Source: a virus. Taken from it: DNA of 64,000 bases. Below, piece after piece: positions 1 through 51,642 of the stretch; position 1 is the first letter of the stretch; each line of letters starts with the position of its first letter. The stretch is from positions 87,383 through 151,382 of IMG/VR virus record IMGVR_UViG_3300025853_000035; one strand, 5' to 3'. The position numbers were made by a program, and so were the translations under genes. Below the pieces are notes generated by a model. It did not search any database. It had not been told where the DNA came from and worked only from the letters and a program-made list of their open reading frames with translations.

Positions 1-54
1 AAATTCAACCTCACGAGCGCCAAGTATGGCCTCCAGACCAAGATGGCTCCCTGA
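1..54 (+). CDS. 3' end of an upstream gene (partial)
   Basis: Reading frame 1 is open from the window edge and ends with KYGLQTKMAP and a TGA at 52-54. The TGA overlaps the ATG of the next gene (TGATG), the same coupled arrangement used throughout this genome. Only 17 residues are visible, so no function can be assigned; a recombination or replication protein would fit the neighbourhood. Confidence 0.6.
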   Translation, partial: KFNLTSAKYGLQTKMAP

Positions 55-47101: not shown

Positions 47102-47884
47102 TCAGCGGTTACCGCTGGCCTTGTTCGCCAGTTCGAGGCGTTGCAGGGGGGACATCGCGGCGATCTGAGCAGCGGTGAAACCACCGATCTTCTCGTCCTT
47201 GCCGCCGGCAGCGCCACCGCCACCGTTGCCCTTGAAGTAGTGCGGCGCTTCGTCGCGGAGCTTGACCAGCCACTCGGTGACGGTCATCGCATCTGCGCCG
47301 TTTGCGCCGAAAATCGTTGCTTCGCCGCGCTTCGGGATGAGCTTTTCGTCCTCGACCTTGAACAGGCGGTAGGCACGCTCCAGCACGTCCGGCAGGGCTT
47401 CGGGGCGGACACCGCTCTCGGGGACGATCACGGCTGCGGTGACTTCCTTGTCGATCCGCGTCCGGTTCAGCCGCTCCACGAGGGTGACTGCCTTGGCATT
47501 CGCAGCGTCAAGCTCGCGCTTGAGGCTGCGGGAATTGTCTTCGTAGCCGTCGCGCATGACCTTGATGCGGTCCTGCACAGCCTGCTCGATCTGGTCGTCG
47601 GTCTTGAGTTCCCCGTCCTTCACGCGCTGCGAGATGTCGCGCAGACCGTTCAGGTCGTTGGCGAAGGCTTCGAGGTCGTCACCGGCGATTTCCTTGACGC
47701 GAGCGAGGATCGGAGCCTGCGCTTCCAGCTTCTTGGAAAGATCGATGTTCTTTTCGCGGAACTCGTCGAGCTTGACGGTCGCGGTCACATTGACTGCGAA
47801 CTTGCCCGTTTCGTCGTTCTGCTTGGCGAACTCCTTGAGTCCCTCCGGGACTGCGTCGATGGAGTCGAAATTGATGATTGGCAT
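47102..47884 (-). CDS. Capsid scaffolding protein
   Basis: 260 residues, strongly helical and charged with a central coiled coil (EFREKNIDLSKKLEAQAPILARVKEIAGDDLEAF...DRIKVMRDGYEDNSRSLKRELDAANAKAVTLVERL), gly-rich linker and C-terminal helix (FTAAQIAAMSPLQRLELANKASGNR). Typical scaffold layout and position before the capsid gene. GAGGAAC precedes the start. Confidence 0.75.
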   Translation of the reverse strand: MPIINFDSIDAVPEGLKEFAKQNDETGKFAVNVTATVKLDEFREKNIDLSKKLEAQAPILARVKEIAGDDLEAFANDLNGLRDISQRVKDGELKTDDQIEQAVQDRIKVMRDGYEDNSRSLKRELDAANAKAVTLVERLNRTRIDKEVTAAVIVPESGVRPEALPDVLERAYRLFKVEDEKLIPKRGEATIFGANGADAMTVTEWLVKLRDEAPHYFKGNGGGGAAGGKDEKIGGFTAAQIAAMSPLQRLELANKASGNR

Positions 47885-48096
47885 TTGAAGAAGTTCCTCA
47901 CCGAGGGACTGGAGAAAGCACGCACGAAGTCGTGACCTCCGGGACCCTCCCAGAGGATTTCCTCATTCCGGCGTGTCGGACGCACGGAAGAAATCGAGTG
48001 GGGGAATAATTGGTGGTTCCCCCGGAACCGGATGTGATGGAGATTGGAAGAGCGAAATCGGTCCCCGATTTGGCTTCAATTCCGAATATGGCGACA

Positions 48097-48137
48097 AGGA
48101 TACGAGAAATTAACCTTAATGTCAAGCTAAAATGTCG
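48097..48137 (-). promoter_or_regulatory. Capsid operon promoter with TTAAGGTTAA in the spacer
   Basis: Minus strand ACCGACATTTTAGC, TTGACA (48125-48120), 17-bp spacer TTAAGGTTAATTTCTCG, TATCCT (48102-48097). It joins the late ACCGACATT element and the TTAAC-type element of the small-gene array. A 200-nt leader with hairpins (47890-48060) precedes the scaffold gene. Confidence 0.8.
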
Positions 48138-50129: not shown

Positions 50130-50146
50130 GGGGGAGGGAGTCCGGG

Positions 50147-50181
50147 AAAAAGCGGCCGGTGATCCGAAGATCGCCGGCCGC
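50147..50181 (-). terminator. Strong terminator just upstream of portal
   Basis: GCGGCCGG-C-GATC-TTCG-GATC-A-CCGGCCGC followed by TTTTT on the minus strand; a 12-bp stem with a UUCG loop. It would end RNA started at the 50.65-kb promoter before the portal gene. Confidence 0.85.
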
Positions 50182-50636
50182 AGGTCAGGAGGAGACAGGC
50201 TGATGTCGGAGCCACCCGCCGGAGGGAAAAGGACAAAGCCTCCGGGAACTAGGTCAGGAAGGACCGGCCTTTTGCACCATCGGTGTGCCGGACCATGACC
50301 TGAAACAATCCGTGCGCTTCGAGCGGCCACAGGGACCTACCACACATCGGAAAGGGCTTGCCCATCTGGCCCAACGAGGACCGGGCTTACCTACCACATC
50401 CGTCTCCAGCGCTTTGGAGGTTGGAAGCCTTCTCGATCGCATGACGGTTGGGTTCCGGGGGTCAGCCCGACCAAGGGCCTACTGTCCATTCCCGCGCGCC
50501 AAGTGGTCTCGATCTTACGCCTTCCAGCCGCGAAGGGTCTGGGATGCTACATGAATGGGGTTGAGGCTCGCGAGATCGCCTAGTGCGGAAAGGAGACACA
50601 CTTCGGGGGAGATCAGCGCTCATCACGAGCCTCATG
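50152..50636 (-). ncRNA. Candidate ~485-nt structured leader or stand-alone RNA
   Basis: Lies between a good promoter (50643-50671) and the terminator at 50147-50181, with no convincing gene. Visible pairings on the minus strand: GAGGCTCG (50633-50626) with CGAGCCTC (50570-50563); CTCCA/TGGAG near 50420; AGGTC...GACCT enclosing CCGGC...GCCGG near 50300-50250. GATGTGGTAGGT (50400) and GATGTGTGGTAGGT (50348) are a near-repeat. It could be a large phage RNA or a long regulatory leader of the portal. Family not recognised. Confidence 0.45.
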
Positions 50637-50642
50637 ATTATT

Positions 50643-50671
50643 AAGCTACCACGTCTTTCTTGATTTGTCAA
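50643..50671 (-). promoter_or_regulatory. Promoter for the 50.2-50.6 kb RNA
   Basis: Minus strand TTGACA (50671-50666), 17-bp spacer, TAGCTT (50648-50643). No ACCGACATT element; constitutive-looking. Confidence 0.75.
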
Positions 50672-50744
50672 GCCATACCGTATAGCGTGTCGTGCTAGAA
50701 TGACTGTGAGTCGGATGGCTACGCCTTTGTCGCCCAAAGAAAAA

Positions 50745-50770: not shown

Positions 50771-51580
50771 TCATGCTGCGTAGAGGTAAAGCACCTCTTC
50801 GATCACCGGGTGGCGGACCACGTCGGCGCGGGTCAGGGCGTAATAGCCGATCCGCTCCCAGCGGCGGGGTTCGGCCGGCAGGCGCTCCTCGCCCGTGATG
50901 AAGCCCGGCAGTTCCGGCTCGAACGCTTCCTCCTCGGCTTCCTCGCGCTGCTTGAGACGGCGCGTGATGTCGGCCAGACCGCTGACGGTGGTGCCGAGTT
51001 CCTTGCGATCCCACTGCTCGGTGTCGCCGGTGACGATCATCTTGCTGTTCTCGCCGATGCGGGTCAGCAGCATCTTCATCTGGTCGGCGGTGGCGTTCTG
51101 CATTTCGTCGGCGATGATGATCGCGTTCTTGAACGTGCGGCCACGCATATAGGCGAGTGGCGCGATCTCGATCTCCTCGCGCTGGAGCATCTGCTGGACG
51201 GCGATGACGCCGAAGCATTCGTTCAGCACGTCCACGATCGGGCGGGTCCACGGAGCCATCTTCTCGTTGAGCGTGCCCGGCAGGTAGCCGAGGTCGTCGC
51301 CGGTCGCGACATTGGGGCGGGTAATGATGATCTTGTGGAATTCACCGGCGATGTATTTGTCCGCTGCTTCACGAACGGCCATGTAGGTCTTGCCGGTGCC
51401 GGCCGGCCCCTCGACGATGAGGATGTCGTGCCGCATCTGGCGGAGCTTGCGCAGATAGCCTTTCTGGTTGGGAGTGGAAGCGGTGAGCTTGGGCGGGGCT
51501 TTGTGCTTGGTGGATTCCATCTTCTCTGCGATGTGTGAGGCGTTGGTGGGGAAGAAGGTCTGCTTCTTGTTGCCGGACAC
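50771..51580 (-). CDS. phoH: PhoH-like ATPase
   Basis: 269 residues from a GTG at 51580 with AGGAG upstream; longer frames lack a ribosome site. Walker A GPAGTGKT (58-65), RPNVATGDDLGYLPGTLNEKM, and Walker B IIADEMQNATADQMKMLLTRIG, then VTGDTEQWD. PhoH is common in phages; suggested roles are RNA/DNA helicase activity and phosphate stress. It has its own promoter and terminator. Confidence 0.9.
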   Translation of the reverse strand: MSGNKKQTFFPTNASHIAEKMESTKHKAPPKLTASTPNQKGYLRKLRQMRHDILIVEGPAGTGKTYMAVREAADKYIAGEFHKIIITRPNVATGDDLGYLPGTLNEKMAPWTRPIVDVLNECFGVIAVQQMLQREEIEIAPLAYMRGRTFKNAIIIADEMQNATADQMKMLLTRIGENSKMIVTGDTEQWDRKELGTTVSGLADITRRLKQREEAEEEAFEPELPGFITGEERLPAEPRRWERIGYYALTRADVVRHPVIEEVLYLYAA

Positions 51581-51642
51581 AGAAAACTCCTGTGAGCGTG
51601 TGAGGGAGGGAGCAAAGGAACGCCCATCACTCGGCAAAATTT

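Follow-up and report, generated by a model that had tools for sequence, protein, structure and literature searches.

The question raised by this locus is what occupies the nearly 500 nucleotides between a promoter and the start of the portal gene in the 64,000-nt stretch of viral DNA analysed here (in the following, the window). The hosts of the virus are sphingomonad-type bacteria. A preliminary description had proposed a structured RNA between promoter and terminator, perhaps of the GOLLD or ROOL type, or alternatively an attenuated leader of portal. The locus contains the following features:

50771–51637: PhoH-like gene with its own terminator near 50744, neighbouring the RNA unit on the side away from portal
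50671–50643, minus strand: sigma70-type promoter TTGACA-17-TAGCTT, with an equivalent promoter in relatives
50636–50147, minus strand: predicted structured RNA of ~490 nt (portal leader or sRNA), from promoter to terminator, with homologues upstream of portal
50181–50147, minus strand: intrinsic terminator, its stem varying freely in sequence with pairing kept
50130–48348, minus strand: portal protein gene (PHROG 145, E 9.6e-104) with TTG start and weak Shine-Dalgarno sequence

Read along the minus strand, promoter, a non-coding stretch of ~490 nt and intrinsic terminator follow one another, and the portal start at 50130 comes directly thereafter. Both signals had been recognised correctly: the sigma70-like promoter is present at 50643–50671 on the minus strand, and the terminator at 50147–50181 consists of a 13-bp stem (50181–50152) with one mismatch, followed by UUUUU. 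A scan of both strands for TTGACN-16..18-TANNNT yielded only four sites in 64 kb, and nearly all relatives possess a promoter at the equivalent place before portal and another one before the scaffold gene. A generic promoter scan found none at the RNA unit, because the -10 element matches in only 3/6 positions. The segment had been said to lack a convincing gene, which agrees with zero PHROG matches for the ORFs inside it and with an opposite-strand frame that is not conserved. In this unit and in relatives the portal start is located 12–20 nt after the terminator, with no other promoter between. The TTG start of portal (50130, minus strand) has hardly any Shine-Dalgarno sequence and lies ~16 nt past the U-tract of the terminator; in relatives, starts are TTG, GTG or ATG with a weak GGA(A).

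Homologous DNA upstream of portal was found in the Erythrobacter phages XM05 and vB_EliS-L02 (L02) and in metagenomic contigs (portal identity 67–79%), and a similar, shorter unit occurs at the same place in Sphingobium phage Lacusarx; among relatives, the RNA ranges from 190 to 490 nt. A covariance model from which Lacusarx had been withheld detects the Lacusarx unit immediately upstream of portal (E 2.8e-8). Model R1, which describes the core (see below), finds one copy per phage genome; across 385 genomes of the class it gave three weak matches, all bacterial (L084, L085 and L086; E 4.3e-4 to 9e-3 per genome), which are probably due to chance, being near expectation for that number of genomes. 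A pattern scan with CGAAGCNCGNGGAYNGNTTC matched 41 contigs, and only the matches upstream of portal were real. Promoter, leader and intrinsic terminator stand directly before portal in the relatives, except in a sub-clade of Citromicrobium phage RXM and contig L078, where the U-tract terminator and the conserved body are missing and the promoter and an antisense motif in a hairpin loop (see below) have been kept. In contig L012 (2860–3001) the RNA before portal is reduced to its 3' end, the 5' part being replaced by unrelated sequence, which may reflect a chimeric assembly. In the more distant phages RcXuper, DSS3P8 and Cp1R7A-A1 the RNA is absent and a promoter-like sequence immediately precedes portal; thus the promoter looks like that of portal, into whose leader the RNA appears to have been inserted in this clade.

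This arrangement would suit a purely cis-acting attenuator that keeps the portal level low or regulated. In phage lambda, the pR' transcript ends at tR', i.e., a strong promoter, a leader of a few hundred nucleotides and a terminator precede the late structural genes. The layout of the present locus is the same; here, however, no Q-type system was identified, and the RNA covaries and carries an antisense motif. Attenuation in cis would be consistent with the constant position of the RNA upstream of portal, the short distance from terminator to start codon, the distant relatives with promoter-like sequence and no RNA, the frequent TTG or GTG starts of portal with weak Shine-Dalgarno sequences, and the separate promoter of the scaffold gene. 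The layout bears out the preliminary description in its consideration of an attenuated leader; as a whole, that description was supported in part.

Folding of single sequences was uninformative: the energy of the minus strand is ordinary (z -0.56; 26/100 shuffles), and the plus strand gave z -1.57. Since the folding energy is no better than that of shuffled sequences, support for a structure comes from comparison, i.e., from conservation and covariation of the following elements:

50633–50563, minus strand: lineage-specific 5' hairpin closed by GAGGCTCG (50633–50626) and CGAGCCTC (50570–50563)
50547–50542, minus strand: GCATCC, 5' arm of helix H1, pairing with 50401–50396
50508–50504, minus strand: conserved GACCA, which may pair with the UUGGUC loop in a pseudoknot (by inspection)
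50474–50469, minus strand: conserved loop UUGGUC (from the alignment)
50401–50396, minus strand: GGATGT in the first copy of GATGTGGTAGG, 3' arm of helix H1, pairing with the 5' arm
50391–50302, minus strand: two-hairpin core (model R1, from covariation), its second hairpin with internal loop UGGUA/CGAAG

An 8-bp stem of GAGGCTCG and CGAGCCTC had been pointed out previously; its pairing is perfect, but most relatives lack this 5' hairpin or have a different one. The repeat GATGTG(TG)GTAGGT, also noticed earlier, is conserved in two copies, one forming the 3' arm of a long-range helix and the other lying in the internal loop of a hairpin. Helix H1 (GCAUC.. with ..GAUGU; arms chosen by eye) closes the 5' domain, and 10/10 sequences keep 5–9 of its pairs, several with compensatory changes. 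In the 90-nt core, with ten sequences aligned, 95.4% of the cells are paired and four pairs change on both sides, with 8 cells changed in this manner; neither that number nor the covariation score was reached by any of 500 shuffles. When the core structure was slid along the alignment the paired share dropped to 26–52%, a comparison that flatters the structure, as it had been named by hand from the same sequences. The UUGGUC loop and the GACCA upstream may form a pseudoknot, as judged by eye; L015 has GACGAA/UUCGUC in place of GACCA/UUGGUC (by inspection). Terminator stems have almost no sequence in common among relatives and retain complementarity, which fits a terminator that is needed and shows no sign of a conserved antiterminator; judged from this variability and from the alignments, no alternative antiterminator helix is apparent. 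Conservation and covariation thus bear out the proposal that promoter and terminator bracket a structured RNA.

The RNA belongs to no described Rfam family. A search of the window gave no match at the gathering threshold, and a permissive search (E up to 10) no match to GOLLD or ROOL; its best E-value was for sX13, with 20.2 bits versus a gathering score of 50. The weak permissive matches to sRNAs were rejected, being driven by the terminator and C-rich sequence. GOLLD and ROOL are large structured RNAs, often present in phages. The RNA described here is likewise a large structured phage RNA, but much smaller than those and without a match to their models. Its size, phage location and complex fold with conserved internal loops could still suggest a large ornate RNA of that kind having its own structural role; given the Rfam result, the range of only 190–490 nt in relatives, and the loss of the body in RXM and L078, which yet retained the antisense motif, we consider this very improbable, and the GOLLD/ROOL proposal was not upheld.

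The most informative feature, which was missed in the preliminary description, is that the RNA matches, in antisense, the ribosome-binding sites of neighbouring small genes:

50198–50188, minus strand: antisense motif CUGUCUCCUCC, complement of the Shine-Dalgarno sequence GGAG(GAG)ACAG of small genes
63870–52457 (first and last start codons), minus strand: proposed target block of 22 small genes with Shine-Dalgarno sequence GGAGACA(G), nearly all with promoter cassette GTGCTTGACCGAATC

The sequence CUGUCUCC(UCC) at 50198–50188 is located just before the terminator; the 22 small genes have the complement, GGAGACAG, as their extended Shine-Dalgarno sequence, in which GGAGACA(G) occurs mostly as GGAGACAGACMATG. 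The most constant piece of the 3' region of the RNA is CCUGUCUCCUCC (50199–50188), adjoining the terminator. For an unbiased test, the start regions of each genome were searched for complements to all 8-mers of the RNA from that genome. Any ATG opening a frame of 40 codons or more counted as a start site; this includes many false starts, and the test is therefore conservative. The antisense motif ranked first in 9/9 phages (p 3.5e-57 to 1e-4), with ~180–480 8-mers tried per RNA, so that the p value for Lacusarx is marginal after correction. Matching sites numbered 37 in the window (vs. 0.45 expected), 24 in XM05, 34 in L02, 29 in G002, 16 in G004, 12 in G005, 10 in G007, 7 in RXM and 5 in Lacusarx. 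Complementarity to the predicted target ribosome-binding sites beyond chance is therefore present in nine phages, representing about three independent switches, since six of the nine are close relatives. The distance of the top 8-mer to the 3' end is 37–58 nt, except in Lacusarx (91 nt). How exposed the motif is predicted to be differs among the RNAs (mean unpaired 0.13–0.92); it is open in the folds predicted for the window, L021, L014, L015, RXM and L078, and partly or fully paired in others.

GGAG by itself pairs with any CUCC. Sites with the ACAG extension numbered 0 in Novosphingobium plasmid pNL2 and in phages DSS3P8 and Cp1R7A-A1, and 3 (2%) in RcXuper; the extension is thus not a general Shine-Dalgarno sequence of the host type. 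Mesorhizobium phage Cp1R7A-A1 (L172–L178) has a frequent Shine-Dalgarno extension of its own, GGAGTTTC (11 vs. 2.2 expected). The sRNAs sX13, RNAIII and alphaproteobacterial CcsR/cuckoo have a C-rich stretch by a hairpin or terminator which is complementary to the Shine-Dalgarno sequence. The phage RNA resembles them in its C-rich sequence next to a hairpin or terminator; it is not homologous, as the sX13 score indicates, and its motif differs in extending into ACAG and following the phage's own Shine-Dalgarno sequence.

The motif could also be merely the beginning of an opposite-strand gene, with its ribosome-binding site and start codon, since the plus strand of the window reads GGAGGAGACAGGCTGATG there and XM05 has a 90-codon frame at this place. 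In 6/14 relatives, however, there is no start codon, the others have unrelated frames of 7–90 residues, and the stems of the RNA covary; this is the least probable of the explanations considered, and such a gene start was rejected, as its frame is not conserved among the 14 relatives.

The small genes share a promoter-like cassette, TTGACCGAATC (consensus GTGCTTGACCGAATC), of which 20 exact copies are found between 52514 and 63934, all on the minus strand, ~50–70 nt before the start codons. Many GTTAACC sequences were noted near these cassettes. With a common promoter and a common Shine-Dalgarno sequence, the small genes of this phage look like one regulon. The exact cassette is not universal among relatives: there are 24 copies in XM05, 32 in G002, 2 in L02, one each in Lacusarx and G007, and none in RXM. 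The sites of XM05 are found among small hypothetical genes, outside structural and most replication genes; the predicted target genes are probably an early class. As the Shine-Dalgarno sequence is conserved past its complementary part (GACAGAC) and the cassette is common, part of this rigidity may be due to copying or homogenisation of the cassette.

Comparison of relatives suggests that the motif changes together with the Shine-Dalgarno sequence, with one clean switch (RXM) and two weaker ones (Lacusarx, G007). RXM, in which the count of GGAGACAG is zero, has the sites AGGAGCGA/GGAGTGAC and in the RNA UCGCUCCU/GUCGCUCC, i.e., Shine-Dalgarno sequence AGGAGYGAC and RNA GUCGCUCCU. Lacusarx has sites GGAGACAC and RNA GUGUCUCC (n = 5; ACAC with GUGU), and G007 sites AGGGAGAC and RNA GUCUCCCU (n = 10). 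When nine contiguous pairs were counted, the main-clade motif preferred main-clade sites and the RXM motif RXM sites; the motifs of Lacusarx and G007 showed no preference for their own sites. A matrix of duplex energies did not separate the motifs, as GGAG can pair with all of them, save that RXM sites preferred the RXM motif.

These results bear on the attenuator acting purely in cis, for which the Shine-Dalgarno match would be functionless. It leaves unexplained that in nine genomes the highest-ranking antisense match falls at one and the same place in the RNA, and that the motif of RXM changes with its Shine-Dalgarno sequence; nor is an antiterminator helix apparent, since the terminator stem varies freely. 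On balance we regard it as unlikely, if the most serious of the alternatives. The same co-variation would fit a reverse relationship, in which abundant early mRNAs pair with CUGUCUCC and alter read-through, portal being turned on once they vanish, and the motif does directly abut the terminator stem. One RNA facing many identical sites is, however, more simply understood as a regulator of many genes, and RXM and L078 have no intrinsic terminator to regulate; such a relationship is less economical than a trans-acting RNA, and appears quite improbable.

The explanation which we favour, and consider probable, is an attenuated portal leader which doubles as a trans-acting antisense RNA and blocks translation of the small genes. 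A structured, single-copy RNA would be transcribed from the portal promoter, and most transcripts would end at the terminator before portal; the few reading through would give low portal expression, the start codon and Shine-Dalgarno sequence of portal being weak as well. The released RNA would offer CUGUCUCC(UCC) near its 3' end for pairing with GGAGACAG or GGAG(GAG)ACAG of some 20–35 small genes, and ribosome binding or initiation on their mRNAs would be prevented. Onset of portal transcription could then shut off translation of a probably early gene class. The c4 antisense RNA of P1 and P7 is a structured RNA encoded by a phage which prevents translation by pairing around a ribosome-binding site (PMC12197685), and the mode predicted here, a structured phage RNA acting at the ribosome-binding site, is the same. 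c4, however, acts on the ant mRNA, whereas the RNA described here, the leader of portal, has some 20–35 separate predicted target genes at other genomic positions.

A literature search revealed no phage RNA aimed at a Shine-Dalgarno sequence common to many phage genes, a weak negative, as subscription journals were mostly outside its scope; the passages of the Lacusarx and vB_EliS-L02 papers that were searched contain no mention of a portal-leader RNA. To our knowledge, known phage antisense RNAs act on one or a few mRNAs. One RNA directed against the ribosome-binding signal of 20–35 genes would, if the explanation is correct, constitute a regulon-wide translational switch, and the retention of an unusual Shine-Dalgarno extension not needed by the ribosome would be explained. 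The sequences suggest that with the start of particle assembly a single RNA could turn off an entire class of genes. We see about an even chance for the wider proposal, in which one leader RNA, released by attenuation ahead of the first head gene, would pair with a phage-specific extended Shine-Dalgarno sequence and thereby silence a complete early regulon, with the motif and dozens of sites co-evolving, as an early-to-late translational switch tied to the onset of assembly. The cultured phages Lacusarx, vB_EliS-L02, XM05 and RXM make the idea directly testable, and a search route for such RNAs using sequence only starts from the extended Shine-Dalgarno sequence peculiar to a genome and looks for the complementary sequence beside a terminator.

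Another conserved leader, ~200 nt long (47884–48125, minus strand), was observed between a promoter TTGACA-17-TATCCT and the scaffold gene. It carries GGTTCCGGGGGAACC..ATTCCCCC and AAATCCTCTGGGAGGGTCCCGGAGGT..CCCTCGGTGAGGAA, and its 3' part is kept in 11/11 sequences compared, RXM and L078 included.
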